Assembly (NCBI GenBank): GCA_003331935.1
Contig: QOQE01000005.1
Location: forward strand, 1-64,000
From: Alphaproteobacteria bacterium
GTDB lineage: Bacteria; Pseudomonadota; Alphaproteobacteria; Rhodobacterales; Rhodobacteraceae
Reading direction: 5' to 3'
DNA: 64,000 bases
The first letter of the stretch is position 1. Each line of letters begins with the position of its first letter. Of this stretch, positions 5,427-42,247 are shown piece after piece. The translations under genes were made by a program, and so were the position numbers. Below the pieces are notes generated by a model. It searched no databases. It had not been told where the DNA came from and worked only from the letters and a program-made list of their open reading frames with translations.

Positions 5427-5433
5427 TTATAAA

Positions 5434-5913: not shown

Positions 5914-6017
5914 AGCTCAATTTCCAAATTAAAGAGGATTGTGTCTTGAAAGTAACATGGATCTTTATATTAGCAATATATTCTTTAAAAGCTTGAAATC
6001 TCTATGGCTCTTGGGTA

Positions 6018-9673: not shown

Positions 9674-9674
9674 G

Positions 9675-10404: not shown

Positions 10405-10430
10405 AAAATAAGTTTACGTTAGCTTATTTT
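10405..10430. repeat. 8 bp inverted repeat downstream of the peroxiredoxin gene
   Basis: AAAATAAG (10405-10412) and CTTATTTT (10423-10430) are perfect complements around a 10-nt loop. It lies 20 bp after the stop of the minus-strand peroxiredoxin gene, so it may be a weak terminator, but the stem is almost all A/T and no clear U-run follows. It could also be an operator for the bactofilin gene. The rest of the 295 bp between the two genes (10155-10449) shows no coding sequence or RNA gene. Confidence 0.35.
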
Positions 10431-10449
10431 GAGAATTTCTTGATAGCTC

Positions 10450-10923: not shown

Positions 10924-11004
10924 GTAAACATCCTTTTTTTTATAGGTCAGCTAATTTATATACTTTATAATGGAACTACATTCGTACATTAATCAAGAAC
11001 AAAA

Positions 11005-14187: not shown

Positions 14188-14201
14188 ATTGGTAAGATAC
14201 G

Positions 14202-15254: not shown

Positions 15255-15306
15255 AGTTTTATTTTAAATTCGTAAGCTAAGTGTTATATAGTCGTGGGGG
15301 GATAAT

Positions 15307-16692: not shown

Positions 16693-16704
16693 TATAAGAA
16701 AAAG

Positions 16705-17673
16705 ATGAATAAAAGATTTCAAATAAGGCATCCTGAAAAGGTTAAAAACCAACCAATACCTATGGCAAAAAAGCCTTCCTGGATAAAGGTGAAAGCACCA
16801 CTATCCGAAGGCTACAGAGAAACAAGGAAGCTTGTAAAGCAAAGTAATCTAAAAACAATCTGTGAAGAGGCCAGTTGTCCTAATATAGGTGATTGTTGGT
16901 CCAGGGGGCATGCCACATTCTTGATTATGGGAGATATCTGTACGAGAGGATGTGCATTTTGTAATGTCAAAACAGGTATGCCTTTAAAGTTAGATTTTTT
17001 AGAGCCAGAAAGAATAGGGCTTTCTGTGCAAAAAATGAATCTAAGACACGTAGTTATTACTAGCGTGGATAGAGACGATTTGCCAGACGGAGGAGCTCAG
17101 CATTATGTAAAAACAATCGAGGCTATAAAAAAACTCTCTCCCTCTACTACAATTGAAATTTTGACGCCAGATTTTTTGAAATGTGATGCTGATGTTATCT
17201 TTCCAATATTAAATGCTGAACCCGATGTTTTTAATCATAACTTAGAAACAGTGCCAAGCCTTTATCCTGTAGTACGACCTGGCGCTAGATATTTTACCTC
17301 ATTGAGATTACTAAGTAGGGTGAAAGAGGCAAATCAGTCCATTTTCACTAAATCAGGAATTATGGTTGGGATGGGTGAGACTAGAATAGAAGTTAGCCAG
17401 CTAATGGATGACTTAAGAGCAGCTAATGTAGATTTCTTAACTATTGGTCAATACTTGCAACCAACTCCTAGGCACTTTCCAGTTAAAGAATTTGTGCTTC
17501 CTGAAACGTTTGAACATTATAAAAAATTAGCACTGGGAAAAGGGTTTCTTTTAGTCTCATCAACACCACTAACAAGATCTTCTTTTCATGCTGATGATGA
17601 TTTTGAACTTTTAAAAGATGCTAGAAGAAAAGCCTTGAATGCTCAAAAAAAAGTTAACAAAAAAAGTTTATGA
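16705..17673 (+). CDS. lipA: Lipoyl synthase
   Basis: Radical-SAM enzyme that inserts two sulfur atoms into protein-bound octanoyl groups to give lipoyl cofactors. Both iron-sulfur sites are intact: the auxiliary cluster Cys53, Cys58, Cys64 and the radical-SAM cluster Cys79, Cys83, Cys86. The C-terminal RSSFHAD motif provides the serine ligand of the auxiliary cluster. The 322-residue length is normal. It sits 12 bp after lpdA, whose product depends on lipoylated partners, and its 3' end overlaps the next gene by 35 bp. Confidence 0.96.
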
Positions 17674-18085
17674 TTGTAAGGCTATTGATCTACTAACTGT
17701 AGTAGCTGATGTAAAATCATATGCAGACTTTATTCCTTTTTGCTCTGACGTTGATATTTACGATAATTTTGTTTCAAAAGAACTCGAGTATTTTTCTGCA
17801 TGTTTATTTATAAATTTTAAATTGGCTACCGAAAACTTTGAAACTAAAGTAGTAGTTAACAGAAAATTAAACATTATTTCAATCACAGGTAATACTAAAC
17901 CTTTCAGATCTTTAATTGCCAAGTGGTCTTTTATTGAAAAAGAAAACTTTTGCGAAGTTACCTTTTCTTTAGATGCAGCGTTTACATCTTATATAAAAGA
18001 GAAACTTGTAGCAATTAGTTTTGAAAAGATAGCAGTAAACATTATTGACGCCTTTGAAAGCAAGGCCAAAGGAAAATTTTTTTAA
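17639..18085 (+). CDS. COQ10/RatA-like START-domain protein (type II toxin-like / ubiquinone-binding)
   Basis: The 148-residue SRPBCC (START-like) protein matches the family of yeast COQ10, a ubiquinone-binding helper of respiration, and E. coli RatA. Evidence is [17 protein letters not shown] (residues 20-36), the beta-sheet core, and the C-terminal amphipathic helix. In alphaproteobacteria this gene follows lipA, and a role in ubiquinone handling is the better inference; the toxin label comes from RatA only. The ATG at 17639 lies inside the end of lipA (35 bp overlap), suggesting translational coupling. The 3' end overlaps the convergent cinA gene by 4 bp. Confidence 0.88.
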
Positions 18086-18576
18086 GTACGTTCTAATATA
18101 TCAAGGCCCATTTTAAGTGCCTTATTTACGCTTTTTTGCTGAATTTTATGCCTTTCAATGTCTCCAAAGTTAAGTTGTGTAATTTTCTTGGTACCACAAG
18201 AGGATATTTTTACACCGATAAAAACTAATCCTACTGGTTTAGCCTCAGACCCACTTGGCCCAGCGACTCCCGATATTGCTACGGCCAAAGTTTTAGAGGT
18301 TGCTAGCTTACATAAACCAATCAACATCTGCTCTACCGTTTCGTAACTTACTGCGCCAAAGGTATTTAAAGTGTTTTCATTTACATTTAAGAATTTTTTT
18401 TTTGACTCATTTGAATAACAAATGAAGCCATATGAAAAAACATTCGAAGATCCCGCTATTCCAGTGATATTTGCACTTAAAAGCCCACCAGTGCAGCTTT
18501 CCGCAACCAATAACTTCACATTTTTTTCAAAGCATACTTCCAAAAGTTTTTTGGACAATTTTTGGGAATTTAGCAT
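18082..18576 (-). CDS. CinA C-terminal domain protein (NMN amidohydrolase family, PncC-like)
   Basis: A stand-alone 164-residue CinA C-terminal domain; family members deamidate nicotinamide mononucleotide in pyridine nucleotide salvage. Motifs are LLVAESCTGGLLSANIT near residue 22, GSSNVFSYGFICYSNESK, FGAVSYETV and AVAISGVAGPSGS. The N-terminal molybdopterin-binding-like domain of full CinA is absent, which is the usual alphaproteobacterial form. It starts directly after the pgpA stop with no gap, so pgpA and cinA are probably co-translated. Confidence 0.92.
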   Translation of the reverse strand: MLNSQKLSKKLLEVCFEKNVKLLVAESCTGGLLSANITGIAGSSNVFSYGFICYSNESKKKFLNVNENTLNTFGAVSYETVEQMLIGLCKLATSKTLAVAISGVAGPSGSEAKPVGLVFIGVKISSCGTKKITQLNFGDIERHKIQQKSVNKALKMGLDILERT

Positions 18577-29413: not shown

Positions 29414-30086
29414 CTTTGAAAAAAGGGGAAATATCGAAATCCTTTGGTAAACAAAACGATGGATGGCGCATTATTAAGGATTGTAATTTACCCTTAAATG
29501 GGAGTATCGGATGATCTATTTCTTTGAAGGCTTGCGCAATTAGAGAGGAACAGATTGCTTTCGTTGGGTCTCCTGCACCAATACCAATTAAATTTCTTCT
29601 AAATTTTTTTGGAATGGGTGGGTTTGGATATATATACCTAATCAGGTCAATGATGTTTTTCAAATCGTATTTTGCGCCTATTTTCTTGACTAAATAATTA
29701 ATTAAAATCTTTTTTTTTCTTTTATCCAGGAATATCGGTCTGCATACCCTAAGATTATGGTGCATGTAAGTATTGATATCGGTATATGTACATCCATCAA
29801 CAGCCTTAACCTCTATCAAACAGTGGTTAAAATAATCTGTTTTTCCAATGAAAACTGCCGCATGGGACCAGTTAGAGTTAGTTATGAATTGGATCGCGCT
29901 GCTTACTCGGCTCTGTCCTTCAACCAAAACTACGTCACCAGGTTTCAAAATAGATTTTATATCATCAATACTAATTCTGTAGTATGCATCATTTTGAATG
30001 TGCTCCTTGGTAAGAAACTTTGCTAATTGAGTTCCAATCAGTTCCAGAAACGACAATTTAACTAACGCTCCATCAGCTGTCGCCAA
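29382..30086 (-). CDS. YiiX/YebB-like permuted papain amidase (C92 family), lipo-like protein
   Basis: A 234-residue member of the circularly permuted NlpC/P60 (C92) family. The catalytic His is in SNWSHAAVFIG (near residue 76) and the catalytic Cys in KAICSSLIAQAF (near 190). The LKPGDVVLVEGQSRVSSAIQ opening and RNLIGIGAGDPTKAI segment match an alphaproteobacterial subgroup of unknown substrate; amide or thioester cleavage of cell-wall or lipid compounds is a family inference. No signal peptide is visible. TTG 30086 overlaps tdk by 25 bp; an internal TTG at 30056, 11 nt after a GGAG, is an equally plausible start. Confidence 0.8.
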   Translation of the reverse strand: MATADGALVKLSFLELIGTQLAKFLTKEHIQNDAYYRISIDDIKSILKPGDVVLVEGQSRVSSAIQFITNSNWSHAAVFIGKTDYFNHCLIEVKAVDGCTYTDINTYMHHNLRVCRPIFLDKRKKKILINYLVKKIGAKYDLKNIIDLIRYIYPNPPIPKKFRRNLIGIGAGDPTKAICSSLIAQAFKEIDHPILPFKGKLQSLIMRHPSFCLPKDFDISPFFKVIKPSPQNFY

Positions 30087-30640
30087 TGCACTCTACACAA
30101 AGATTCGTATAGATCATTTCCACCAATTTGTATTTGAGATCCATCTTTTAAAGGTTTATTATTAGGGGACTTTCTTACAACCATAGTAGCTTTTTTTCCA
30201 CAATGGCATATTGTCTTTATTTCCTTTAATTCGTCGGCTAAGCCAAGAAGCGCAGATGATCCTGGAAATAAATTTCCTTGAAAGTCTACCCTAAGTCCAT
30301 AACACAAAACTGGTAGAAAAAGATCATCTACGGCTCTTGCTAGTTGCCACACCTGATCTTTGGTCAAGAATTGAGCCTCATCAATTAAAACACATGCAAT
30401 TGAAGAACTTTTTTGCTTTAATTTTAATAGATTATACAGGTTTACTCTGTCATTGAAAGTATCAGCTTGTTTCTCTATTCCTATTCGACTGGCAATTTTT
30501 CCTTCGCCAGATCTATTATCAATTTCTGCTGTTAGAAGATAAGGAACCATTCCTCTTTCTTCATAGTTATGCGCAGCTTGCAATAGTATAGTTGATTTTC
30601 CTGCATTCATCGTTGAGTAATTGAAAAATAACTTTGCCAT
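30062..30640 (-). CDS. tdk: Thymidine kinase (type II)
   Basis: Phosphorylates thymidine for dTTP salvage. The 192-residue length is standard. Walker A is MNAGKST (near 11-17), with DEAQFL as the Walker B/lasso entry region, and a structural zinc site formed by the CHC pair in TICHCGKKAT and the Cys and His of LCRVHW near the C-terminus. It is followed by the overlapping C92 gene and preceded by the BKACE gene, with only 3 bp between them. Confidence 0.95.
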   Translation of the reverse strand: MAKLFFNYSTMNAGKSTILLQAAHNYEERGMVPYLLTAEIDNRSGEGKIASRIGIEKQADTFNDRVNLYNLLKLKQKSSSIACVLIDEAQFLTKDQVWQLARAVDDLFLPVLCYGLRVDFQGNLFPGSSALLGLADELKEIKTICHCGKKATMVVRKSPNNKPLKDGSQIQIGGNDLYESLCRVHWRQLMER

Positions 30641-30643
30641 AGA

Positions 30644-31468
30644 CTATTCTAGCTCTAAAATTTCACGTGCCTTTTTCCAAGAAGCAACAGGTCTATTGTA
30701 TTGTTCACAAATATCTTTGGCAATTTTTACCAAACTTGCGTTTGAAGGTGCTAGGTTATCCTTGTCAATTCTTATATTATCTTCCAAACCGGTCCTCACG
30801 TGTCCTCCTAGCTTTACACACCATTCATTTAATATTTTTTGATCTTTACCTATTCCTGCGCCACACCAAGATGCTTTTGGCAAAAGTCGTTTGACAGTTG
30901 AAATATAGTATTCGAAAACGTTAAGATCGGCTGGCATTGCGTTTTTGACACCCATAACAAATTGAATATATAGATTATCTTTTAATTTATTTTGCTTAGC
31001 TAACATAGCAGCTTGATGGATATGAGATAGGTCAAAAATCTCTATTTCAGGCTTAATTGAATTTACAATCATTTCTTTTGCTAGCCAATCAACAAGGTCT
31101 GGAGGATTCTCGTACACTCTTGTGGGAAAATTATTGGAGCCAACTGTCAAAGAAGCCATATCAGGTTTGAGAGGAAGCATTTTTCCGCGGTCAAAACCAT
31201 GACCCGAACGACCACCAGTAGAGAGTTGTATTATCATTCCAGGGCAGTATTTCTCAATCCCCTCTTTAAGTAATCTATATTTATCAGGATCAATGCTAGG
31301 TGTCCCATCATCGTTACGAACGTGACAATGAACAATACTTGCACCAATCTCAAAGCACTCTTGGGTACTTTCTATCTGCTCCGGTATACTTATTGGGACT
31401 GCGGGATTATCTTTTTTTGTAGGAACAGATCCTGTAATTGCGACACATATGATACAAGGGTTATCCAT
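30644..31468 (-). CDS. BKACE-family beta-keto acid cleavage enzyme (DUF849)
   Basis: TIM-barrel zinc enzyme that condenses a beta-keto acid with acetyl-CoA to give a new CoA thioester and acetoacetate; the founding member cleaves 3-keto-5-aminohexanoate in lysine fermentation. The 274-residue protein has the metal ligands His47 and His49 in VHCHVRN and the conserved Glu229 in HVRTGLED, which match the characterised enzyme. The substrate differs widely across this family and cannot be read from sequence. It is divergent from the aromatic-type catabolic run, so a shared pathway is possible. It is followed by tdk on the same strand. Confidence 0.88.
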   Translation of the reverse strand: MDNPCIICVAITGSVPTKKDNPAVPISIPEQIESTQECFEIGASIVHCHVRNDDGTPSIDPDKYRLLKEGIEKYCPGMIIQLSTGGRSGHGFDRGKMLPLKPDMASLTVGSNNFPTRVYENPPDLVDWLAKEMIVNSIKPEIEIFDLSHIHQAAMLAKQNKLKDNLYIQFVMGVKNAMPADLNVFEYYISTVKRLLPKASWCGAGIGKDQKILNEWCVKLGGHVRTGLEDNIRIDKDNLAPSNASLVKIAKDICEQYNRPVASWKKAREILELE

Positions 31469-31549
31469 CCCCTCAATATAGATTGAAATAAGGTCAATTA
31501 AAAATAAAATATCGGTGGATTATGTGTTCTTATCTTATTAAAGTTAAGC

Positions 31550-32386
31550 ATGTCCTATGCTGCGTTCAATTCCAATGCCTACTTACACCATATTGCTTTG
31601 AAAACAAGGCATCCTTTGGAATTAGCGAAGTTTTACGAAAATGCATTGTGTTTAGAAAAGAAGCGCATATCTGGCGGTTGGCTTTTATCTGGAAGCAATA
31701 GACGAGTTCTTATATTGAATGATAAGAAAAATAGCCTTGGTTTTGCCAGTTTTGCCTGTCAAGACATTCGCTCATTTAAAATTTTAAAAAGAAATTTTAT
31801 GGAAAAGGGTATAAAGACATTCCAAGATGATATGTCTCTTTTTGGTAAAGATAATTTTTTTATTTCAGATTGTGATGGTAACAAGATTTATTTCGGGCTC
31901 AACAAAAATAGAAAAGAAAAAAGCTCAAACCTATATGCGCCACTCCAACATATTACCTTTACCTCAAAAAATTTGGATAACTTTGTTCAGTTTTATGTTG
32001 ATAAGCTTGGATTTAAAATATCCGATAAAGTTATGAATAAAGACGGTAAACTCACTACTTGTTTTATGAGATCAAATCAGGAGCATCATACTATTGCTTG
32101 CTTTTTAAGCAATAAATCTGGTTTAGATCACTTTAGTTTTGAAGCAGGCACATGGGAATGGATAAAAAATTGGTGCGACCATTTTTCTAAGCAGAAAATT
32201 GAATTGATTTGGGGGCCAGGTCGTCATGGGCCTGGAAATAATCTATTTGCATTCATTGAAGATCTTGATGGAAACAAAATAGAAATTTCTGGTGAGTTAG
32301 AAATTATTCATGATAGGAAAATTAAAAAATGGCCCCATGAACCAAGAACTTTAAATTTATGGGGTAGTGCAATAATGCGCTCGTAA
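31550..32386 (+). CDS. Two-domain type I extradiol ring-cleavage dioxygenase (VOC superfamily)
   Basis: Likely Fe(II)-dependent meta-cleavage enzyme for a catechol. The 278-residue protein has two VOC domains (about 10-118 and 130-250). The catalytic C-terminal domain carries the metal triad His134 (LQHITF), His194 (GLDHFSFE) and Glu245 (DGNKIEISG), plus His179 and His226 in the positions of the known acid-base residues. The usual active-site Tyr of the F-x-Y motif appears as Phe235. It opens the plus-strand run leading to an FAH hydrolase and an FAD hydroxylase, which supports aromatic catabolism; the exact catechol is unknown. Confidence 0.82.
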   Translation: MSYAAFNSNAYLHHIALKTRHPLELAKFYENALCLEKKRISGGWLLSGSNRRVLILNDKKNSLGFASFACQDIRSFKILKRNFMEKGIKTFQDDMSLFGKDNFFISDCDGNKIYFGLNKNRKEKSSNLYAPLQHITFTSKNLDNFVQFYVDKLGFKISDKVMNKDGKLTTCFMRSNQEHHTIACFLSNKSGLDHFSFEAGTWEWIKNWCDHFSKQKIELIWGPGRHGPGNNLFAFIEDLDGNKIEISGELEIIHDRKIKKWPHEPRTLNLWGSAIMRS

Positions 32387-32398
32387 TGGAGGAAATTT

Positions 32399-33268
32399 AT
32401 GAAATATGTAAGTTTTGTTAGACTAGGTGAAACCTGTTTTGGAGCTTTCCATCATGGTAAGGTTTATGACTTGACGTATCAGTTGGCAGGAGGTTCCTCA
32501 AGCTTAAAGGAAGCTATTTATTTTGGAACTATTCCAGATAATACAGAAGAATTAGAAGGCTATTTAGCTAATGTTACTGCTTATGACCCTGCTGATATAA
32601 CATTTTTGCCCGTAATACCAGATCCAGGAAAGATATTTTGTATTGGGCTGAATTATGAAAACCATAGAAAAGAAACTGAAAGACCAGAGGTTCAATATCC
32701 CACTATTTTTACGAGATTTGCAGAAAGCCAATTGGCTCATAGAGAGGCAGTAATTAAGCCTGCTTTATCCGATAAAGTAGACTTTGAAGGTGAGTTAGCT
32801 GTGGTAATTGGAAAGGGAGGTAAAAATATTTCCACTGAAGAAGCTATGAAAAGTATCGCGGGATATACTTGTTATAACGACGTTTCCATTAGAGATTATC
32901 AGAGACATACAAGTCAATTTGTCCCCGGAAAAAACTTTTCTAAAACAGGTGGTTGCGGCCCATTTTTAACGCTCGAGTCCTTTATTAAAGATTATCAAAG
33001 CCTGTCAATTAAAACAATATTGAATGGTGAGGTTATGCAAGAAGCTAAGCTCGATCAATTAATTTTCAAAATACCCGAGATTGTCTCCTATATTTCGTCT
33101 TTTACTCCTTTAGTCGCAGGAGATATTATAGTAACGGGAACACCTGGTGGTGTTGGGGATAGGCGAGATCCTCCTTTGTATATGAAAAATGGAGACATCG
33201 TAGAGGTTGACATTTCGGGTGTTGGTCGGCTTGTTAACCCCGTGCTTGACGAAAGCATTATCCTGTAA
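32399..33268 (+). CDS. Fumarylacetoacetate hydrolase family protein
   Basis: FAH-superfamily enzymes hydrolyse or decarboxylate or hydrate the keto-enol products of ring cleavage. The 289-residue protein has an N-terminal subdomain (1-70) and the catalytic core from KIFCIGLNYENHRKE (79-92). The metal-binding Glu130 and Glu132 lie in DFEGELAVVIG, with Asp161 in CYNDVSIRD, and a GTPGGVG loop near the C-terminus. A GGAGG ribosome site precedes the ATG, 12 bp after the dioxygenase. In context it probably acts on the meta-cleavage product; hydratase, isomerase or acylpyruvase activity are all possible. Confidence 0.87.
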   Translation: MKYVSFVRLGETCFGAFHHGKVYDLTYQLAGGSSSLKEAIYFGTIPDNTEELEGYLANVTAYDPADITFLPVIPDPGKIFCIGLNYENHRKETERPEVQYPTIFTRFAESQLAHREAVIKPALSDKVDFEGELAVVIGKGGKNISTEEAMKSIAGYTCYNDVSIRDYQRHTSQFVPGKNFSKTGGCGPFLTLESFIKDYQSLSIKTILNGEVMQEAKLDQLIFKIPEIVSYISSFTPLVAGDIIVTGTPGGVGDRRDPPLYMKNGDIVEVDISGVGRLVNPVLDESIIL

Positions 33269-33286
33269 ACACTTTTTAACTTTACT

Positions 33287-34879
33287 GTGAAAAAAAAATT
33301 CGACGTAATTATTGTTGGAATGGGTCCTTCGGGCCTTGTTTTATGTGGGTTGCTTAATAACTATGGTGTCAAGGTAGGTATTTTTGAGAAGAATAAAAGT
33401 ACTGTTACAGAACCAAGAGCGGTTTCTATAGATGATGAGTCTCTTCGAATTCTTCAAAGCTTTTCATTGCATCAAGCTGTACTGAGAAATGTTTCTCAAA
33501 ATTATGGATCACATTACTATGATGCAAAAGGTAGGCTCTTTTTGAAAGTTGAGCCGAATTCACGTGAAAATGGTTTCTTTAAAAGGAATGCTTTTGATCA
33601 GCCGACCTTTGAAAGGACTTTATGGAAACACTTAGAGAAACAAAAAAATGTTAACATTAATTTTTCACATACGCTGGTCTCTATAAAAAATGAGATAAAT
33701 CGTGTTACAGCGTCTTTTGTAGATAGCAAGGGATTAAAAAAAAGCTTTCAGGCAAAGTATCTCGTGGGTTGTGATGGTGGGCAATCAACCGTTAGAGGCT
33801 TAATTGGCGCAATAATGAAAGGCAGTAGTTTTAATCAAAATTGGTTAGTGGTTGATGTAGATAAAACATGTAATTTTTTCCGACACACGCAAGTGTATTG
33901 CAGCCCAAAGCGTTCATCCATAACCTTACCTGGGCCTCATGGTATAAGAAGATATGAGTTTAAATTGAAGGATGGAGAGAGCTCTGAAAAATTAGGTGAA
34001 GATTTCATAAGAAAACTTTTAGTAAGTGTAGGAAAAGATGGAAAAGCAAAGATTAGAAGATCACAGGTATATCAATTCCATGCTTTGATATCTTCAGAAT
34101 GGAAAAAAAAATCGGTAGCAATTGCAGGCGATGCAGCGCACTTGTCTCCTCCTTTCGCTGGGCAGGGAATGAATAGTGGAATTAGAGATGTTGGCAATCT
34201 GGGGTGGAAGTTAGCACTAGCAATAAAAAAACCAAAATCAAAAGATATATTAGAAACCTATTTTCTTGAGAGAAAAGAACATTGTTGGGCTCTAATTAAT
34301 TTGGCGATAAGAATGGGTCAAATAATGGTGCCAAAAAACAGATTTAGTTCGTTTTTTATCGTATCTTTTTTCAGGCTGATAAAAATAAACAAAACGTTAC
34401 TTAATTATGTTTCTCAAATGAAGTATCGGCCCAAACCTAAAATAGGCAGGGGAATAATTTATTTTCATGGGAAAAATACAAGAAATGATAAAAAATTAAT
34501 TGGAACGCTATTTCCACAACCCCTAGTGGAAAATATAAAAGGTAAAGAGTCTTATTTGGATGATGTGCTAGGAAACAAGTTTTCTTTAGTCTTTTATATA
34601 AAAAACATTGATGCCTATATTAGTTTCGAAAAGTGGCTCAATAAACTTTCAAAGACCTGTAAAGTTGTTGTTTTATTGCATCAATCATGCATGATCTTTC
34701 CAAGCCGATATGAAGTTATTCGAGATTCGAATAATCTATTAGAAAACTCTAATCCAAGGGTGCCAGAAAATAGTGTTGTTTTAATTCGACCTGATAAATT
34801 AGTTTCTGCAATCTACACGAAAAATAATCTTCATTATTTAGCAGATTTATTGAATAATGATGAGATATTTAGTTTTTAA
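33287..34879 (+). CDS. FAD-dependent aromatic hydroxylase, MhpA-like (first copy)
   Basis: Group A flavoprotein monooxygenase that would add a hydroxyl to a phenolic acid using NAD(P)H and O2. The 530-residue protein starts with GTG. It has the Rossmann FAD motif GMGPSG (11-16), the DG motif VGCDGGQSTVR, and the GDAAHLSPPFAGQGMNSGIRD motif that closes over FAD and pyrophosphate, followed by a C-terminal thioredoxin-like domain from about 410. Closest described type is 3-(3-hydroxyphenyl)propionate hydroxylase; the substrate is not determined. It is 18 bp after the FAH gene. Confidence 0.83.
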   Translation: MKKKFDVIIVGMGPSGLVLCGLLNNYGVKVGIFEKNKSTVTEPRAVSIDDESLRILQSFSLHQAVLRNVSQNYGSHYYDAKGRLFLKVEPNSRENGFFKRNAFDQPTFERTLWKHLEKQKNVNINFSHTLVSIKNEINRVTASFVDSKGLKKSFQAKYLVGCDGGQSTVRGLIGAIMKGSSFNQNWLVVDVDKTCNFFRHTQVYCSPKRSSITLPGPHGIRRYEFKLKDGESSEKLGEDFIRKLLVSVGKDGKAKIRRSQVYQFHALISSEWKKKSVAIAGDAAHLSPPFAGQGMNSGIRDVGNLGWKLALAIKKPKSKDILETYFLERKEHCWALINLAIRMGQIMVPKNRFSSFFIVSFFRLIKINKTLLNYVSQMKYRPKPKIGRGIIYFHGKNTRNDKKLIGTLFPQPLVENIKGKESYLDDVLGNKFSLVFYIKNIDAYISFEKWLNKLSKTCKVVVLLHQSCMIFPSRYEVIRDSNNLLENSNPRVPENSVVLIRPDKLVSAIYTKNNLHYLADLLNNDEIFSF

Positions 34880-34887
34880 AGTGTATA

Positions 34888-34932
34888 GTTATTGTAAATT
34901 TATAATTTAATAACATCTGGGGAGGAAGTTAA
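34888..34932 (+). promoter_or_regulatory. dctP leader: TATAAT, imperfect palindrome and strong ribosome site
   Basis: In the 53 bp before dctP, TATAAT lies at 34901-34906, flanked by the inverted arms GTTATT (34888-34893) and AATAAC (34909-34914), with inner arms AAATT/AATTT. This looks like an operator over a -10 box. A strong Shine-Dalgarno GGGGAGGAAG (34919-34928) follows, 4 nt before the ATG, matching a highly translated binding protein. No good -35 is seen. Confidence 0.4.
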
Positions 34933-35961
34933 ATGAAATTATTTTTGAGATTTTTAGTAGCATCTGCTTCTGTATTGTTTCTTTCAATATCTGCATACGC
35001 GGGGGAAGTAGTACTAAAGTTCCATTCATTTCCACCAATGCCTGCTAATTCTAATGCAAAGTTTGTTAAGCCATGGAGCGAAAAGGTATTAGCGGAGTCT
35101 AACGGTGAAATAAAAGTTGAGATTTATCCTGCAATGCAATTGGGTGGGAAACCACCGCAACTCGTTGATCAAGTGAGGGATGGTGTTGTGGACATCGTTT
35201 GGACTGTTGCCGGCTATACGCCAGGAAGATTTCCACATTTGGAGGCCTTTGAATTACCATTTATGCCAGCTTCAGCAGAAGCGACATCACAAGCTCTTCA
35301 AGAATACGTGGATACTGTAGCTGCCTCTGATCTTAAGGATTATAAGGTTTTGGCTGTCTTTTGCCATGCTCCAGGAAAAATCCATACTAAGGAAAAAGTT
35401 ATAAAGTCTGCGGCTGATTTAAATGGAATGAAGATGCGTGGTCCTACAAGAGTGATTACTAAAATGCTTGAAGGTTTAGGTGCTACTCCTGTAGGAATGC
35501 CTGTTCCTGCAGTTGCCGGAGCATTATCTAAGGGCGTGATCGATGGAATGGTTGTACCTTGGGAAATTATGCCTTCTTTTAAACTACACGAGTTGACTAA
35601 AGCACACACAACAGTTTCAGGGTCAAGAGGTCTTTATACGACACCATTTTTGTTTTTAATGAATAAAGCAAAGTATGAGTCTCTGAGTGATGAACACAAA
35701 AAGGTCATCGATAATAATGCTGGTCTCGCTCTTGCAAAGCTTGCTGGACAACTTTGGGACGGTTTTGAGGTTCCAGCTAGGAAGTTAGCATTAGATGCAG
35801 GTGGAACTATACATTCTCTATCAGGAGGTCCTCTTGCAGAAATGAAGGCGGCTGGCGAAGGACTTGAAAAGGATTGGATAAAATCTGCTAATGATCGTGG
35901 CTTGGATGGTGCAATGCTTGTTAAAACTGCGAAAGACTTAATTTCGAAATATGATAAGTAA
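34933..35961 (+). CDS. dctP: TRAP transporter substrate-binding protein DctP
   Basis: Periplasmic receptor of a tripartite ATP-independent transporter, which imports organic anions using the sodium or proton gradient. The 342-residue protein has a clear signal peptide (cleavage after AYA, residue 23). The conserved Arg169 in MKMRGPTR binds the carboxylate of most TRAP ligands, and the AGALSKGVIDGMVVPWE segment is typical. Location between ring-hydroxylating and ring-cleaving genes suggests the ligand is an aromatic or phenylalkanoic acid, an inference. Its gene has its own leader and is followed by a hairpin that may end most transcripts. Confidence 0.9.
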   Translation: MKLFLRFLVASASVLFLSISAYAGEVVLKFHSFPPMPANSNAKFVKPWSEKVLAESNGEIKVEIYPAMQLGGKPPQLVDQVRDGVVDIVWTVAGYTPGRFPHLEAFELPFMPASAEATSQALQEYVDTVAASDLKDYKVLAVFCHAPGKIHTKEKVIKSAADLNGMKMRGPTRVITKMLEGLGATPVGMPVPAVAGALSKGVIDGMVVPWEIMPSFKLHELTKAHTTVSGSRGLYTTPFLFLMNKAKYESLSDEHKKVIDNNAGLALAKLAGQLWDGFEVPARKLALDAGGTIHSLSGGPLAEMKAAGEGLEKDWIKSANDRGLDGAMLVKTAKDLISKYDK

Positions 35962-36484
35962 AAATACCTTCTTGGATATTGAAGATACTGAGCGCCCAAA
36001 TGATATTTTTGGGCGCTTTTTACTTAAACTTGTAACTTATCTAGCAATTTGCGGAGGTTTAGTGCTTGTTGTCATAGTACTGATAAATTTTATTTCTATT
36101 GCTGGAAGGACAATGTTCGACAAGCCCCTAACAGGAGATTTTGAACTTGTAGAAATGGGCTGTGCTGTTGCAATATTTTCATTTCTACCACTTTGTCAAT
36201 TTAAGAACGGTAATGTGATGGTAGATTTTTTTACAATTAACCTATCGAACAAAATCAAAAATAGCTTAAATGGGCTTGGTGCTTTTTTGTTTTTTTTAGT
36301 CTCATCTTTTTTTACATGGAGAATGGTATACGGAACCTTAGACATGTACAAATATAATGAACAAACAATGTTGCTTCAAATTCCTGTTTGGATTCCTTTT
36401 ATTCCAGCTGTAATCTCTTTCGGTGTCCTATCGATAACCTGCCTCTATACGTCAGTAATATTTTTCAAATCGGCTTTAAAATAG
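35951..36484 (+). CDS. dctQ: TRAP transporter small permease DctQ
   Basis: Small membrane subunit that links the DctM channel. The 177-residue protein has four membrane helices (about 27-50, 66-84, 98-119, 139-165), the family pattern. The ATG at 35951 overlaps the end of dctP by 11 bp. The sequence coding for residues 14-23 also forms a hairpin. A later start would remove part of the first helix, so the hairpin is inside the coding region. Its ribosome site lies within dctP, so translation is coupled. Confidence 0.88.
   Translation: MISKNTFLDIEDTERPNDIFGRFLLKLVTYLAICGGLVLVVIVLINFISIAGRTMFDKPLTGDFELVEMGCAVAIFSFLPLCQFKNGNVMVDFFTINLSNKIKNSLNGLGAFLFFLVSSFFTWRMVYGTLDMYKYNEQTMLLQIPVWIPFIPAVISFGVLSITCLYTSVIFFKSALK
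35991..36020 (+). terminator. Terminator-like hairpin inside the dctP-dctQ junction
   Basis: AGCGCCCAAA (35991-36000) and TTTGGGCGCT (36008-36017) are perfect 10 bp complements with a 7-nt loop, followed at once by TTT (36018-36020) extending the run to four T. It begins 30 bp after the dctP stop and lies in the first 25 codons of dctQ. It is the most GC-rich and strongest stem in an AT-rich region. Likely role: partial terminator or 3' stabiliser that keeps dctP mRNA in excess over dctQ-dctM. Confidence 0.7.
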
Positions 36485-36496
36485 CAACTATTTATT

Positions 36497-37816
36497 ATGG
36501 ATAGACTCTACCTAGGCATATTAGCTTTCCCAATTCTTTTTTCCTTATTGGCTGTGAGGGTTCCGATTGGTTTAGCAATGTTAGTCGTAGGCTGCTCAGG
36601 GACAATTTTTATAGCGGGTTGGTTGCCCATTATGTCTCAAGTAAAGACAAGTGCATGGCACCTTTTTTCTAATTATTCCTTTACCGTTATTCCTCTTTTT
36701 TTACTGATGGGAAATTTTGCGTCTAAGGCAGGAATGAGTGAATCTTTATTTAGGTTTGCTGGTGCTTGCCTTGGACACAGACGAGGTGGAGTTGCTATGG
36801 CTGCCGTTGGCGCTTGTGCTGGGTTCGGAGCCATTTGCGGTTCATCTCTTGCAACGGCTGCTACTATGGGCCGTGTGGCTCTTCCAGAGCTCCGTAGAAT
36901 GGGTTATTCCGGGTCGCTGAGTACTGGGGCCTTAGCTGCTGGAGGCACTTTAGGCATTTTGATACCTCCATCAGTTATTTTGATTATTTACTCAATACTA
37001 ACAGAACAAAATATTGCTAAAATGTTTTTAGCAGCGTTTGTCCCTGGAATTCTTGCCGCCATCGGATACCTAATAGCAATAGCTATTTTTGTTAGGATAA
37101 AACCAGATTCTGGACCTCCCACAAGCTATGTGGGGTGGAGACAGAGACTGAGTTTATTTGGGCAAGTTTGGCAAATACTTGTTATATTTTTTCTTGTTAT
37201 TGGAGGTATATATCTTGGTTGGTTTACGCCTACAGAGGGTGCTTCAATTGGTGCAGCTGGCACTGGAATTATGGCTCTATTCACAAGGGGGTTTAATTTT
37301 AATGATTTGATAGAGGTTATTAAAGACACAGCAGTAACATCCGCTATGATTTTTTTAGTATTGTTGGGGGCAGAATTCTTTAACTCTTTTATTGCGCTTA
37401 CCCAAATAACTAATCAATTGGCAACATTTGTAATTACTAATCAGCTCTCGCCATACCTAGTTGTATTTTGTATTTTAGTTTTATATGTTTTTCTCGGATG
37501 TCTTATGGATAGCTTAGCCATGATACTACTGACGATCCCAGTATTTTTTCCAATTATTATTGAATTGGATTTTGGCATGAGTATTGAAGAGGTTGCCATC
37601 TGGTTTGGTATTCTAACTTTAATCGTTGTAGAAGTGGGCCTTATAACGCCACCAGTTGGCTTAAATGTTTTCATTATTAATAAAATGGCAAAAAATGTTC
37701 CAATTTCAGATACGTTTATTGGGGTTTTGCCATTTTTGATAAGCGATCTTATTAGGGTTGGAATACTATTTATATTTCCAGGTATAAGTTTGTTTTTAAT
37801 TAGGCTATTAGGGTAG
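36497..37816 (+). CDS. dctM: TRAP transporter large permease DctM
   Basis: Main transport channel of the TRAP system, moving the ligand delivered by DctP with sodium or protons. The 439-residue protein has about 12 hydrophobic segments and the family motifs GVAMAAVGACAGFGAICGSS, ATMGRVALPE, GALAAGGTLGILIPPS and, near the end, LITPPVGLNVFIIN. It begins 12 bp after dctQ. Together the three genes form a complete DctPQM set. Confidence 0.93.
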   Translation: MDRLYLGILAFPILFSLLAVRVPIGLAMLVVGCSGTIFIAGWLPIMSQVKTSAWHLFSNYSFTVIPLFLLMGNFASKAGMSESLFRFAGACLGHRRGGVAMAAVGACAGFGAICGSSLATAATMGRVALPELRRMGYSGSLSTGALAAGGTLGILIPPSVILIIYSILTEQNIAKMFLAAFVPGILAAIGYLIAIAIFVRIKPDSGPPTSYVGWRQRLSLFGQVWQILVIFFLVIGGIYLGWFTPTEGASIGAAGTGIMALFTRGFNFNDLIEVIKDTAVTSAMIFLVLLGAEFFNSFIALTQITNQLATFVITNQLSPYLVVFCILVLYVFLGCLMDSLAMILLTIPVFFPIIIELDFGMSIEEVAIWFGILTLIVVEVGLITPPVGLNVFIINKMAKNVPISDTFIGVLPFLISDLIRVGILFIFPGISLFLIRLLG

Positions 37817-37829
37817 ATGAAGATTCATA

Positions 37830-38378
37830 ATGAAAAATGAACAGATAGTTGATGAATTAAAGGTTATTAAGTGTCAGCATGTTTCCTTGGAAGTGAGCAA
37901 TGTGGACGCCTCATTACACTTTTATAGAGAATTTCTAGGGCTTAAACTTTCGGAGAGGCATTACGCTAACGAAAACCCTGCTATACCATTTGAGATGGCG
38001 TTTATGAGGCTTGGCAAGCAACACCACGATCTTGTCTTGACTCATGATCCAAATAGAGACTATACAGAAAAAGTATTTAATTCAGGTCCTGCCGGAATTC
38101 ACCATTACGCATTTGAGTGCCCTAATAAAGAAAGCTTTGATATGCATTTAGAAAGAGCTAAAGAAATGTCTCTTGAGATTGTAAGAGGTCCAGTTCTCCA
38201 TAGTGCATATCAAGCCAAAGGTGATGGTACATGGGGAGAAAATTGGAGTTTCTACGTTCTAGACCCAGACAAGCATCGTATAGAAATTTTTTGTGAAATG
38301 GCAGAAATAGACAACTTTGGTCATTACATCATGGAGAATGGTAAAAAGGTACCAAACAAAAAAGCAGAAGAAATTTAA
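37830..38378 (+). CDS. Single-domain extradiol-type VOC enzyme
   Basis: A 182-residue VOC protein with the features of a catechol dioxygenase domain: His17 (CQHVSLEV), His91/His92 (GIHHYAFE) and Glu152 (KHRIEIF) as candidate metal ligands, plus His65/His66 in KQHHDLVL. DPDKHRIEIFCE is the typical C-terminal motif. Being a single two-module domain it must dimerise to form sites. It may be a second ring-cleavage enzyme for a different catechol, or an isomerase/lyase of the same pathway. It is 13 bp after dctM and 12 bp before the second hydroxylase. Confidence 0.75.
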   Translation: MKNEQIVDELKVIKCQHVSLEVSNVDASLHFYREFLGLKLSERHYANENPAIPFEMAFMRLGKQHHDLVLTHDPNRDYTEKVFNSGPAGIHHYAFECPNKESFDMHLERAKEMSLEIVRGPVLHSAYQAKGDGTWGENWSFYVLDPDKHRIEIFCEMAEIDNFGHYIMENGKKVPNKKAEEI

Positions 38379-38390
38379 CTTAAAACACAA

Positions 38391-39857
38391 ATGAAAAAAA
38401 ATTTTGATTGCATCGTTATTGGTTACGGTCCTGTCGGCGCTTTACTCTCGATATTTTTATCAAAATTAGGTTTAAGCGTTGCCGTAATAGATAAAAATTT
38501 AGATATCTACCCATTGCCTAGAGCAATACATTTTGATGAAGAAGTAATGCGTATTTTCCAGATGGTTAATCTTAGTGAGAAAATTTCTGAGATTTCACGA
38601 ATAGGTACCAAGGGAATGCATTTTGTAGATAATGAAGACACTGTTTTAATGGAAAGAAAAGGATCGGACGCGATAGGAGAGCTGGGATGGCAAAAAAGTT
38701 GGTATTTCCACCAACCACAGCTTGAAAAGCTTTTGAGGTATAACGCTGAGAAGGATAAAAATTTTGTAAGCTTTTTGGGCTATGAAGCACAAAAAATTTT
38801 TCAAGATAATAATTTAGTAACCGTAAAATCATATAGTAAAAAACTTAAGAAAGAGCTTATACTCCATTGCAAATACCTAGTAGGTTGTGACGGAGCGAAC
38901 TCAATTACTAGCGACTGTATTGGGAAAGAAATAAAGGATTATGGATTAAAAGAAAAGTTTTTAGTCCTCGACCTAAAAGTCGATAATAGATACCAAAACA
39001 TAAAGAATTTGCCAGATTTTACCGTCCAGCACTGTGATAAAGTAAGACCAGTTACCAGGTGCTACATAAGCAAAAAAAGAAGAAGGTGGGAAGTAAAAAT
39101 ATTGCCTGGTGATAATGAGAAAGAGTTTTTAAAAAGCAAATCTATTTGGAAATTCTTGAGCAAATGGATAGAAAAGAAAAACGCAACGATTGAGCGAAGC
39201 CAACTCTATATATTTAGGTCAATACTTAAGAAGAAATGGTATAAAAATAGGATAATTTTAGCTGGAGATAGTGCACATCTTTCTCCTCCTTTTCTTGGAC
39301 AAGGCATGTGCGCTGGTATTCGTGACGTGGCAGTATTGGCATGGCGTTTAAAAGGGTTTGTCAACAATAAGCTTTCTTCTCATGACTTAAATAACTATCA
39401 AAGAGAGAGAATTCCGCATGTATCAGCATTTATCAAGTTAGCTTCTGAGGTCGGCAAAATAATGTCCAACCCAGATATTCTTAAAAAATCAGAAAAATCA
39501 CAAAGTATGCGATTATTTGATTTTCCTAAACCGAGATTAACGAAGGGATTTTTTTATAATTGTTCGTTATCAGGTACTCTTTTTCCTCAATTTGTCGAAA
39601 GCGATAAGAGAAGTGATGACACCCTTGGGTATGAGTTTGTTTTTTTAGCTTTAAAAGAAGACGCGTTTAGTGATGTTGATATTGATAATAAAATATTATT
39701 AAGAAAAACTGCTAAAGGGTTTTTGAGGGACTGGATAGTGAAAAGAAAAATAGTTGGCCTTATCATACGGCCAGATAAATATATTTTTGGCAGTGCCACG
39801 AATGAAAAAAATGTAAAAGCGTTAGTAAGTCATTTTTACAATTTGTATCGGATATAA
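38391..39857 (+). CDS. FAD-dependent aromatic hydroxylase, MhpA-like (second copy)
   Basis: A 488-residue paralogue of the hydroxylase at 33,287, from the same group A flavoprotein family. FAD motifs are present: GYGPVG (residues 11-16), the acidic DG motif VGCDGANS and the GDSAHLSPPFLGQGMCAGIRD motif. The DG motif continues with ITSDCIG, so the Arg usual in the family (xSxxR) is replaced. The C-terminal thioredoxin-like domain is shorter than in the first copy. Two hydroxylases in one run suggest two consecutive hydroxylations or two substrates. Confidence 0.8.
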   Translation: MKKNFDCIVIGYGPVGALLSIFLSKLGLSVAVIDKNLDIYPLPRAIHFDEEVMRIFQMVNLSEKISEISRIGTKGMHFVDNEDTVLMERKGSDAIGELGWQKSWYFHQPQLEKLLRYNAEKDKNFVSFLGYEAQKIFQDNNLVTVKSYSKKLKKELILHCKYLVGCDGANSITSDCIGKEIKDYGLKEKFLVLDLKVDNRYQNIKNLPDFTVQHCDKVRPVTRCYISKKRRRWEVKILPGDNEKEFLKSKSIWKFLSKWIEKKNATIERSQLYIFRSILKKKWYKNRIILAGDSAHLSPPFLGQGMCAGIRDVAVLAWRLKGFVNNKLSSHDLNNYQRERIPHVSAFIKLASEVGKIMSNPDILKKSEKSQSMRLFDFPKPRLTKGFFYNCSLSGTLFPQFVESDKRSDDTLGYEFVFLALKEDAFSDVDIDNKILLRKTAKGFLRDWIVKRKIVGLIIRPDKYIFGSATNEKNVKALVSHFYNLYRI

Positions 39858-39892
39858 GTCCAATAATAAAAATTATACGCAAATTATTGATT

Positions 39893-40309
39893 TTATTGAT
39901 ATTTTATAACATTATTATCTTCTAAAATCCAAGCTTTTATTCCCTTTGTGTTATAGATTGCAGGAAAATCATTTGTTTTCTCCAACGTTTCTGCAATTGC
40001 AGTGGTTCTTCTTCCAGATCTACAAAAGAGTATTATTCCCTTTTCAGAATTTGAAATCTTCTTAATTTTGGTTATAAAACTTTCAAGGTCATATTTTCCA
40101 TTTATATCGAAGAACGTATGCAGGTAGCTGTTTTCGATAACCCCGGTAGAAATCCATTCATCTCTACGTCGAACGTCTATAAGTGGTATGCCTAACGACA
40201 TCAGTCTCTTTATTTCACTATTTCCTATGTTCTTTATCTCTGCGTAACCGAAGTTTGCAAACAAGAATAAAGATAAAAAAAGAAGAGAAGTAATACGTTT
40301 AGTTTTCAT
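39893..40309 (-). CDS. Periplasmic rhodanese-like protein
   Basis: A 138-residue single-domain rhodanese with a signal peptide (cleavage near GYA, residue 23). The active-site Cys96 lies in LFCRSGRRTT, the CxxGxR-type loop of sulfurtransferases. It would act in the envelope on sulfur transfer or on thiol detoxification; the substrate is unknown. It is a single gene, convergent with the second hydroxylase and divergent from yejA. Confidence 0.85.
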   Translation of the reverse strand: MKTKRITSLLFLSLFLFANFGYAEIKNIGNSEIKRLMSLGIPLIDVRRRDEWISTGVIENSYLHTFFDINGKYDLESFITKIKKISNSEKGIILFCRSGRRTTAIAETLEKTNDFPAIYNTKGIKAWILEDNNVIKYQ

Positions 40310-40323
40310 TTCGGTACGAATAG

Positions 40324-40352
40324 TTGGAATCCAAATATAATACTACTATATT
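40324..40352 (+). promoter_or_regulatory. Likely promoter of the yejABEF operon
   Basis: TTGGAA (40324-40329) and TATATT (40347-40352) are separated by exactly 17 bp, and match the housekeeping consensus at four and five of six positions. The predicted start lies about 45 bp before the yejA ATG, after which an AGGGAAA ribosome site follows. No other good promoter is seen between the two divergent genes. Confidence 0.5.
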
Positions 40353-40402
40353 CGAGCGTAGCGGATCTGATTACGACTTAATCATAAGTAGGGAAAATTT
40401 CA

Positions 40403-42247
40403 ATGGATAAAATCAAATCTTTCGTTACGGTATTATTTTTTTGCCTATCAACAAATTACTGTCTGGCTCAAAGCGATATTATTTCTCACGGTATTTCAAC
40501 TTTTGGAGATTTAAAGTATGAGAAAGACTTTAAACATTTGTCATACGTGAACCCAGATGCGCCAAAAGGAGGAGAAATTTCTTTTTGGGCGTTTGGTTCA
40601 TTCGACTCAATGCATCCATACACAAGAAAGGGTAGAGCAGGAGCGTACTCTTCAATATTTTTTGAAAGCCTACTGGAAGGTACTGCAGACGAAATAGACT
40701 CAGCTTACGGTTTAATTGCAAAGGAGATTGAATATCCGGAGGATCGTTCATGGGTTATTTTCACACTTAGAAATAACGTGACTTTTTCTGATGGATCTCC
40801 TTTAACTGCACAGGATGTACTCTTCTCCTATTATTTACTTAAACAAAAAGGACTTCCATCTTTCAGAGCTGTTTTGGAAAAAGATGTGAAAAATGCAGAG
40901 TTAATTTCTGACTTAAAAATAAAATTTACATTTAATGATGATGTACCTAAAAGAGATTTAATTAATACGGTTGGTGGGTTACCAATTTTTTCGGAAAAAT
41001 ACTTTACAGATAATAAAGTGGATTTTGAGGCATCAACACTTACTCCTGCTTTAGGTTCAGGGCCTTACATCTTGGATAAAGTAGATGTTGGGAAACAAAT
41101 TATATATAAAAAGAACGCAACTTATTGGGGTAATGATCTTCCAATTAATAAGGGTCGATACAACTTCAATAAATTCAGAATCGAGTATTTTGCAGACTAT
41201 AATTCTGCATTCGAAGGTTTTAAAGCTGGTACATATACTTTCAGGAATGAAGCATCTTCAAAAATATGGGCTACTGGTTATGATTTCCCTGCATTAGAAA
41301 AGAATTGGGTTAAGAAAACGACTCTTCCAGACGGAAATTTATCCTCCGGGCAATCATTTGTTATTAATTTGAGGCGAGAAAAATTTCAAAATATTAAGGT
41401 TAGAAAAGCCATCGGGTTAATGTTCAACTTTGAATGGTCTAATAGCACTCTTTTTTATGGTCTTTATGAACGCATAAATTCATTTTGGGACAATAGTGAC
41501 CTCAAGGCCTCAGGGTTGCCAACAAATCAAGAACTGCAAATTCTTAGCAAATATAAGTCTATCTTAGACGCGAATAACTTTAGCGAAGAAGTTTTTACAT
41601 TTCCTAAATCATCATTAAAACAGCTTGATCGAAAAAACTTGAGGCAGGCATCAAAATTATTGGACGATGCAGGTTGGGAGGTTAGTGACGACGGTTTGCG
41701 AAGAAACGCTGAAGGTAAAACCCTCGATATTGAGATATTGAACGATAGTCAGGCATTCGACCGTATAATTAACCCTTATATAGAAAATTTAAAAAAGCTA
41801 GGTATCAATGCCGTCAATACTAAAATCGATAATGCACAGATGACAGATCGGCGTAGGAAATTCGATTTTGATATACTGGTTGGTTTCTTAAGTACCCAAT
41901 TAACTCCAGGTTCTGAGCTAGAACAGTATTTTGGATCTGAATCAGCTGATTTTTCCATATTTAATTTAACCGGTATCAAAGACCAGGGTGTCGACGCAAT
42001 TATTAAAGAAGTTAGAGCGGCAGAGTCCAGGGAACAATTGGGGTTTGCAATCAGGGCATTAGACAGGATCTTAAGAAATAAAGTTATTTGGGTGCCCCAG
42101 TGGTTTAAGAATAAACATACTATTGCCTATTACGACATGTATGAGCATCCTAAAGCGTTGCCACAATATGATATTGGTGTGCTAGATACATGGTGGATAA
42201 ATTCTGACAAATATAGTGATTTAAAGGAAAAAGGTGCTCTAAAATAA
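40403..42247 (+). CDS. yejA: Oligopeptide-type ABC transporter substrate-binding protein YejA
   Basis: Periplasmic receptor (SBP family 5) of the Yej importer, which takes up peptides and is known for microcin C uptake in enterobacteria. The 614-residue protein has a signal peptide (cleavage near CLA, residue 22) and the Yej-type N-terminus ISHGISTFGDLKYEKDFKH with YVNPDAPKGGEISFW. The SBP5 core includes LTAQDVLFSYYLLK and the C-terminal WVPQWFKNKHTIAYYD. It heads a complete yejA-yejB-yejE-yejF operon. Confidence 0.92.
   Translation: MDKIKSFVTVLFFCLSTNYCLAQSDIISHGISTFGDLKYEKDFKHLSYVNPDAPKGGEISFWAFGSFDSMHPYTRKGRAGAYSSIFFESLLEGTADEIDSAYGLIAKEIEYPEDRSWVIFTLRNNVTFSDGSPLTAQDVLFSYYLLKQKGLPSFRAVLEKDVKNAELISDLKIKFTFNDDVPKRDLINTVGGLPIFSEKYFTDNKVDFEASTLTPALGSGPYILDKVDVGKQIIYKKNATYWGNDLPINKGRYNFNKFRIEYFADYNSAFEGFKAGTYTFRNEASSKIWATGYDFPALEKNWVKKTTLPDGNLSSGQSFVINLRREKFQNIKVRKAIGLMFNFEWSNSTLFYGLYERINSFWDNSDLKASGLPTNQELQILSKYKSILDANNFSEEVFTFPKSSLKQLDRKNLRQASKLLDDAGWEVSDDGLRRNAEGKTLDIEILNDSQAFDRIINPYIENLKKLGINAVNTKIDNAQMTDRRRKFDFDILVGFLSTQLTPGSELEQYFGSESADFSIFNLTGIKDQGVDAIIKEVRAAESREQLGFAIRALDRILRNKVIWVPQWFKNKHTIAYYDMYEHPKALPQYDIGVLDTWWINSDKYSDLKEKGALK

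Follow-up and report, generated by a model that had tools for sequence, protein, structure and literature searches.

A conserved nine-gene cluster with an aromatic-acid TRAP transporter and probable ring-cleavage enzymes in a small-genome marine alphaproteobacterium

Introduction

Several described systems share parts with the cluster reported here. Plasmid pBAM2 enables its host to degrade 2,6-dichlorobenzoate, for whose uptake a TRAP system has been proposed (excerpts of PMC8460812); in fde and isoflavone clusters, the FAD hydroxylase FdeE and the ring-cleaving VOC protein FdeC act on the same ring (PMC11069340, in part); and in Methylobacterium a gene of the beta-keto acid cleavage enzyme (BKACE) type lies between pcaG and pcaB, with a predicted action on beta-ketoadipate cited (PMC8963497, in part). 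A separate 2,3-dihydroxybenzoate meta-cleavage cluster (available part of PMC6362003) was set aside. We analyzed a 64,000-nucleotide stretch (the window; contig QOQE01000005.1, positions 1 to 64,000, assembly GCA_003331935.1) from an alphaproteobacterium of the Rhodobacteraceae, in which a BKACE gene on the minus strand (30644–31468) diverges from eight plus-strand open reading frames (31550–39857) in the order VOC1-FAH-MhpA1-DctP-DctQ-DctM-VOC2-MhpA2. The host assembly (1.56 Mb, 28 contigs, 90% complete) is of small size, and a literature search, with subscription journals mostly outside its reach, found no paper on this gene cluster.

We read the nine genes as a single unit with which this marine alphaproteobacterium of small genome catabolizes aromatic carboxylic acids; taken whole, with a trihydroxylated-ring and BKACE chemistry and an RNA hairpin inside dctQ, this reading has a probability of roughly 45%. 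That the cluster serves aromatic-acid uptake and ring cleavage is very likely, and the trihydroxy/BKACE chemistry is put forward tentatively. Known types of enzyme, in a combination not described before, probably open the ring and pass its pieces on to central metabolism. A sequence-only reading of the window had proposed an undescribed aromatic meta-cleavage operon on a single strand; the coordinates and plus strand of the eight-gene run are confirmed, and the two VOC proteins, one FAH protein, two FAD hydroxylases, DctPQM, and divergent BKACE that it named all match Pfam families above curated cut-offs (PF00903 and PF01494 twice each, PF01557, DctP, DctQ, DctM, and PF05853). Its word "undescribed" holds only in part: the block of VOC1, FAH, and MhpA1 is of a known kind, and so are TRAP binding proteins for aromatic acids and BKACE genes in pca operons (the last from part of PMC8963497). 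The locus suggests use of aromatic acids by small-genome ocean alphaproteobacteria. Part of PMC12661815 calls aromatic degradation uncommon in the Roseobacter group, a group in which our analysis did not place the window's genus.

Uptake of aromatic acids

Residues 25–342 of DctP (34933–35961, plus strand) are identical, at 318/318 positions, to the protein in PDB entries 5I5P and 5I7I, titled, as far as the title runs before it is cut ahead of the ligand, "marine metagenome TRAP solute binding protein specific for aromatic acid ligands" and derived from Sorcerer II. Because the mature binding protein is thus identical to a crystallized aromatic-acid binding protein, aromatic-acid uptake, as the sequence-only reading had supposed, is largely settled, and import of such acids by DctPQM is nearly shown; the binding check on DctP for which that reading had called is, in effect, already present in the PDB. 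Entries 5IGA and 5IZZ differ from DctP by three Lys-to-Ala changes. We take the ligands of 5I7I and 5IZZ, which are not readable in the titles, to include 3-hydroxybenzoate and m-hydroxyphenylacetate. Next among the PDB proteins come one from Rhodoferax (5IM2, 45% identity, its title likewise truncated) and TarP_Csal (37–42% identity), for which there are structures with coumarate, caffeate, and ferulate (7NSW, 7NRR, 7NTD). The small membrane subunit DctQ (35951–36484; PF04290) and the large one, DctM (36497–37816; PF06808, and TIGR00786 above cut-off), are encoded in the same operon as this TarP-type DctP. The predicted fold of DctP (mean pLDDT 35.4 from the single sequence and 64.7 with 12 alignment rows) served for reading PDB titles alone. 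A literature query for GOS_1523157 returned no paper. An orphan crystal structure from anonymous marine DNA can hereby be assigned to an owner and an operon, and its likely role becomes apparent.

Candidate ring-cleavage enzymes

VOC1 (31550–32386) is a two-domain protein resembling type I extradiol dioxygenases, and its profile aligns with homoprotocatechuate 2,3-dioxygenase (HPCD) across most of its length. The predicted metal ligands H134, H194, and E245 (2-His-1-Glu), the second-sphere residue H180, and H226 within a GRHG motif all align with HPCD; the active-site tyrosine does not, F235 standing at the position of HPCD Tyr257. W221 and L268 occupy positions that we take to bind the substrate carboxylate, the roles of the HPCD residues being assumed here. 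VOC1 scores 78.5, 74.2, and 44.8 bits against the NCBIfam models for HpaD, catechol 2,3-dioxygenase, and BphC, respectively, all far short of cut-offs of 320–366. With the metal ligands kept, residues 235, 221, and 268 different, and the named models missed, VOC1 looks like an extradiol dioxygenase for ortho-diols that has a different substrate.

VOC2 (37830–38378) is a single-domain protein of 182 amino acids with weak similarity to HPCD, to which H92, E152, and Y142 align; H17 and H66 are invariant in 10 sequences, their role being our reading of the fold. The claim that metal-site residues are present in both VOC proteins stands firmly for VOC1; for VOC2 the metal site is putative, with H92 and E152 weakly aligned and H17 and H66 present. 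Homologues of VOC2 with 50–52% identity occur in three of 384 other genomes of the class (loci L212, L213, and L214), and all three adjoin genes for a molybdopterin AhtL-like protein and an iron-sulphur subunit; L213 and L214 also have FAH and DctPQM genes, and the third locus is at a contig start. A resorcinol hydroxylase of the AhtL-type molybdenum superfamily forms hydroxyhydroquinone, a trihydroxybenzene (in the part of PMC10100899 consulted), and the position of VOC2 homologues beside enzymes of this type supports chemistry on a trihydroxylated ring. The hydroxylase type seems to have been swapped in these loci while VOC2 was retained, and a molybdenum hydroxylase possibly supplies an aerobic meta-cleavage pathway there. 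The position of VOC2 beside an MhpA2-like gene is occupied in SAR116-type loci and in L106 by a BphC-like extradiol protein with two domains; this favours a ring-cleaving role for VOC2. Variovorax clusters with VOC, MhpA2, IclR, and FAH genes (L041, L042) were considered as a VOC2 module and rejected, as their VOC proteins are 21–23% identical and lack the second metal histidine.

FAH protein and FAD hydroxylases

The FAH-family protein (32399–33268; PF01557), a proposed acylpyruvate hydrolase, finds its nearest NCBIfam and PDB names among HpaG/HpcE isomerase-decarboxylases, below the NCBIfam cut-offs; its weaker PDB matches include maleylpyruvate hydrolase (6JVV, 2e-19). FAH enzymes typically act on 1,3-diketones or related compounds; the meta-cleavage product of a plain catechol is not a 1,3-diketone, and a third ring hydroxyl would make it one. 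Both hydroxylases carry PF01494: MhpA1 (33287–34879) scores 512 bits against NF004831, a model of the NCBIfam MhpA group, just under its cut-off of 546, and MhpA2 (38391–39857) scores 428 bits against the MhpA-subfamily model NF004829, over its cut-off of 390.

BKACE and its link to pca genes

The divergent protein (PF05853) scores 459.6 bits against NF053568 (3-oxoadipate:acetyl-CoA acetyltransferase; cut-off 350) and holds HCH and GLEDN motifs, which presumably supply metal residues of the BKACE type. Orthologues 59–71% identical are present in 68 of 99 other family genomes, and among the 29 best-scoring loci fetched from these 68, pcaG and pcaH matches lie within 1.5 kb of BKACE in 18. None of the 29 carries Tdk or another cluster gene in its 1.5-kb flanks, and the idea that BKACE is a bystander of the neighbouring Tdk gene was dropped.

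Within the genus, BKACE occurs in 13 of 22 genomes, always with the cluster, and in 13 of the 15 cluster-bearing genomes; in the other two, a contig ends inside the cluster. No intradiol dioxygenase (PF00775) was found in the window's genome or in any of the 15 cluster-bearing genomes of the genus, and the one genus genome of 22 with a match has a catechol-1,2-type protein and no cluster. The 81-bp gap between BKACE and VOC1 (31469–31549) averages 88.7% identity to the window over 11 genus loci, as compared to 64.9% over eight loci for a control divergent gap, the only control used; no inverted repeat was found around it. Because the intradiol gene is missing yet BKACE persists, and because the shared gap is unusually conserved, we read BKACE as retained in the genus to serve this cluster. 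The sequence-only reading had set BKACE at the upstream edge; the divergent gene and its 81-bp gap bear out the position, and BKACE should be counted into the unit.

Conservation in the genus

Genes in one shared order are maintained across a marine alphaproteobacterial genus under purifying selection, and the cluster is not a chance assembly. VOC1 (79–86% identity) and DctP are each found in 13 of the 21 other genus genomes, and one or the other in 14. The seven genomes with neither are 62–77% complete; in one (G001) the Tdk gene stops at a contig end, and in the remaining six Tdk had no match, so that none of the seven proves a true absence. Nine of the 15 genus stretches fetched keep all nine genes in the one order (L046, L047, L049–L052, L054–L056); four (L048, L053, L057, L058) end inside the cluster at contig ends, and one (L060) has none of its genes. 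The last, L059 (G021:C52), holds a divergent partial copy cut by a contig start, with DctP 92% and MhpA2 57% identical to the window. In L054 (G019:C2), BKACE is split over two frames, through either an assembly error or decay of the gene.

Mean synonymous divergence (dS) from the window is 0.77–1.72 for the cluster genes, near saturation, and the dN/dS values of 0.011–0.143 (from nine loci for BKACE and 11 for each other gene) are therefore rough. DctP is the most constrained (0.011), followed by DctM (0.019), VOC2 (0.029), BKACE (0.039), DctQ (0.056), FAH (0.060), VOC1 (0.085), MhpA2 (0.104), and MhpA1 (0.143).

As a separate observation, HmgA scored above cut-off in 10 of the 22 genomes of the genus but had no match in the window's own assembly; its absence there may reflect an assembly gap or a real loss.

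Relatives of the cluster elsewhere

We surveyed named genome loci for the best 80 of 477 confirmed VOC1 relatives, 43 of these loci being at least 18 kb long; the closest named ones among the matches listed are AG-918-C19, AG-916-C10, AG-430-P14, and AG-904-M20, from uncultured Alphaproteobacteria. An FAH match is present in 46 of the 80 and an MhpA1 match in 46, some at only 21–25% identity; 30 have FAH together with an MhpA1-type gene at 35% identity or more, and 16 have a DctP at 60% or more. VOC2 and BKACE occur in the same seven loci, four of them in the window's genus; the corresponding Fisher comparison (7/7 vs. 0/73) ignores relatedness. Three distant loci (L118, L119 at 3908–18468, and L131) have the same eight genes in the same order, and directly upstream of them pcaH, pcaG, BKACE, and a divergent pobA-like gene; pcaD is present as well in L119 and L131, and L119 further has a pcaC-type gene and, below cut-off, a pcaB-like one. 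This pca-BKACE-pobA arrangement upstream of the eight genes is possibly ancestral.

VOC1, FAH, and an MhpA1-type gene stand together in five of the seven VOC1-relative plasmid regions that were opened, namely those of Phaeobacter (L037), Shinella (L038), Aminobacter aminovorans (L040), Variovorax (L044), and Rhizobium (L045). The pBAM2 region (L036) has the VOC1-FAH pair only, and in Martelella (L039) the three genes are scattered.

RNA hairpin inside dctQ

A scan for promoters and terminators identified a hairpin at 35990–36018 on the plus strand, its stem of 11 pairs followed by a T-rich tail; it lies within the dctQ coding region and starts 29 nt past the end of dctP. Overall, the scan gave no excess of terminator-like sites (eight vs. 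6.8 expected by shuffling). All 13 genus loci that were examined have the hairpin, as do 11 other TarP-type loci from several marine alphaproteobacterial lineages, and the hairpin model found a weaker one in L111. The alignment used (A5) holds the 20 distinct sequences of 25 rows: five genus rows identical to L057 were omitted, and L111 stayed outside, its RP...FGR motif being unmatched by the pattern used. Over 12 pairs, 97.5% of 240 cells are paired, five pairs have changed on both sides, and 23 cells are double changes; in 500 shuffles, uncorrected for relatedness, the observed value was never reached for four measures and was reached six times for a fifth, and slid versions of the pairing are 22–59% paired. 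At columns 18 and 36, third positions of Arg and Gly codons, the pairs are CG in 12, UA in three, UG in three, and AU in two sequences, with no mismatches; since pairing is kept at third codon positions, the conserved peptide RPNDxFGR alone does not suffice as an explanation. The hairpin model gave three matches in 61 family genomes, namely the window and two weak ones in loci without query genes, and among 25 sources it matched in the window and L111; Rfam had no match within 30000–40500.

This covarying hairpin could be a translated attenuator or a stabilizer of the end of the dctP message, and it probably ensures that there is more binding protein than membrane subunits. On this proposal, it would be a simple means of setting the ratio of binding protein to permease.

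Gene spacing and flanking genes

The eight plus-strand open reading frames are separated by 12–53 nt, except for dctP and dctQ, which share 11 nt. On one side the cluster is flanked by HflX-, NlpC-, and Tdk-like genes, and on the other by a rhodanese gene followed by Opp-like genes; rhodanese is the one flanking gene that was profile-scanned, the HflX, NlpC, Tdk, and Opp names being our own reading. No regulator gene was recognized within the cluster; IclR-type regulators are present in related clusters.

Proposed route and alternatives

In the route that we favour, MhpA1 and MhpA2 would convert a (meta-)hydroxyphenyl acid to a ring with an ortho-diol and a third hydroxyl, for example a 2,3,5-trihydroxyphenyl acid, and VOC1, VOC2, or both would cleave the ring next to the diol, cleavage between C1 and C2 of the 2,3,5-trihydroxyphenyl acid being considered. 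The third hydroxyl would make the cleavage product an acylpyruvate, a 1,3-diketone, which FAH could split into pyruvate and a keto diacid; a benzoate would thereby give oxaloacetate, a phenylacetate 3-oxoglutarate, and a phenylpropionate 3-oxoadipate. BKACE could then convert the beta-keto acid and acetyl-CoA to an acyl-CoA (succinyl-CoA from 3-oxoadipate) and acetoacetate; the FAH and BKACE reactions follow the general chemistry of these enzymes, and 3-oxoadipate, the product expected from a phenylpropionate, is the substrate after which this BKACE family (NF053568) is named. Such a scheme would require no CoA ligase, thiolase, or aldehyde dehydrogenase. The sequence-only reading had called the set either incomplete or a different route; incompleteness need not hold, since FAH and BKACE could finish the route without those enzymes if the hydroxylations yield a trihydroxylated ring. 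The most specific version, a complete CoA-ligase-free route from acids of the 3-hydroxyphenylpropionate type via 2,3,5-trihydroxyphenylpropionate to pyruvate and 3-oxoadipate, with BKACE from a lost pca operon yielding succinyl-CoA and acetoacetate and the hairpin setting the ratio of binding protein to permease, is unlikely to be right in every particular; if true, meta-cleavage would run into the end point of the beta-ketoadipate pathway. Since the scheme predicts defined end products (pyruvate together with oxaloacetate, 3-oxoglutarate, or 3-oxoadipate), six purified enzymes would suffice to test it.

Several points weigh against this route. The enzyme roles in it are predicted; hydrolysis of an acylpyruvate is conjectural, as FAH comes closest in name to HpaG/HpcE isomerase-decarboxylases, below cut-off; and the similarity of VOC2 to true dioxygenases is weak. 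The AhtL-type VOC2 loci come from two genera only, G313 and G406 being of one genus, and the SAR116-type loci, with two VOC proteins and one hydroxylase, are not explained by the scheme. For BKACE, adjacency to the cluster in assemblies that are incomplete confounds their co-occurrence within the genus, 73 of the 80 best VOC1 loci have no BKACE, and the pca operon alone would explain its presence in L118, L119, and L131. Roseovarius nubinhibens, moreover, handles 3-oxoadipate with PcaIJ, as shown by knock-outs (part of PMC12442348), and BKACE is thus not the rule in the group.

A single route also needs just one ring-cleaving enzyme, and the cluster has two VOC proteins. Two parallel meta-cleavage branches (MhpA1 with VOC1, MhpA2 with VOC2) might instead handle different phenolic acids through a shared promiscuous transporter and FAH, with BKACE a relic or serving one branch. 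Several plasmid loci have VOC1-FAH-MhpA1 without VOC2 or MhpA2, L213 and L214 have VOC2 with another hydroxylase, FAH, and DctPQM and no nearby VOC1, and L106 has both pairs around a single TRAP system, all of which suit such branches; however, the genus and loci L118, L119, and L131 retain a single block with constant gene order and spacing, and one FAH would have to be promiscuous toward two different products, so that we regard two branches as doubtful. Para-hydroxylation of 3-hydroxybenzoate or 3-hydroxyphenylacetate, followed by VOC cleavage and FAH action on maleylpyruvate or maleylacetoacetate, as in gentisate and homogentisate routes, would suit meta-hydroxy acids as DctP ligands, to the extent that the ligand names assumed above are right, and the 6JVV match of FAH. 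The classic gentisate 1,2-dioxygenase (TIGR02272) is in none of 22 genus genomes, against a weak control (four genomes, none above cut-off), and gentisate routes are reported in some pelagic Roseobacter clusters (PMC12661815, in part). We consider this quite improbable, as VOC1 aligns with extradiol dioxygenases for ortho-diols, and as homogentisate already has HmgA in genus genomes, although not in the window's own. An mhp variant with the hydrolase, hydratase, and aldolase encoded elsewhere in the genome would fit the placing of both hydroxylases in the MhpA group by NCBIfam, but the mhp gene order is absent at the cluster (MhpC, MhpD, and MhpE were not searched for in the rest of the genome), and the cluster holds FAH, which recurs with VOC1 in 46 of the best 80 loci, rather than an alpha/beta hydrolase; it is very improbable. 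The single catabolic unit thus remains our preferred reading, and its aromatic character is partly supported: of the meta-cleavage operon first proposed, the uptake half is supported, and ring cleavage is plausible.

Comparison with known systems

The cluster on pBAM2 of Aminobacter sp. MSH1 resembles the present one in that VOC1 (44% identity) adjoins FAH (54%) and a TRAP system is on the same catabolic plasmid; it differs in having a Rieske-type oxygenase and glutathione-dependent enzymes rather than MhpA-like hydroxylases, its TRAP proteins are 28–30% identical, and no BKACE was seen there. The fde and isoflavone clusters, compared by description, share the pairing of an FAD hydroxylase with a VOC protein and differ in their flavonoid substrates. 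The pca operon with BKACE between pcaG and pcaB has a BKACE of the same family, whereas the cluster-bearing genomes of the genus (n = 15) are without an intradiol dioxygenase and have BKACE beside VOC1 instead. With mhp and hpa systems, the cluster shares hydroxylases of the MhpA group and matches to HpaD-like VOC and HpaG-like FAH proteins, but the gene order is another: the classic MhpABCDEF set and order are absent at the cluster, in agreement with the sequence-only reading, and neither an alpha/beta hydrolase nor an hpa-type aldehyde dehydrogenase (HpaE) is among the scanned cluster proteins. Among TarP-type transporters, DctP is, from residue 25, the 5I5P/5I7I protein itself and is 37–42% identical to TarP_Csal; the parts of the PDB entries seen show neither operon nor organism, whereas the binding protein here is encoded inside a cluster with extradiol-type enzymes.

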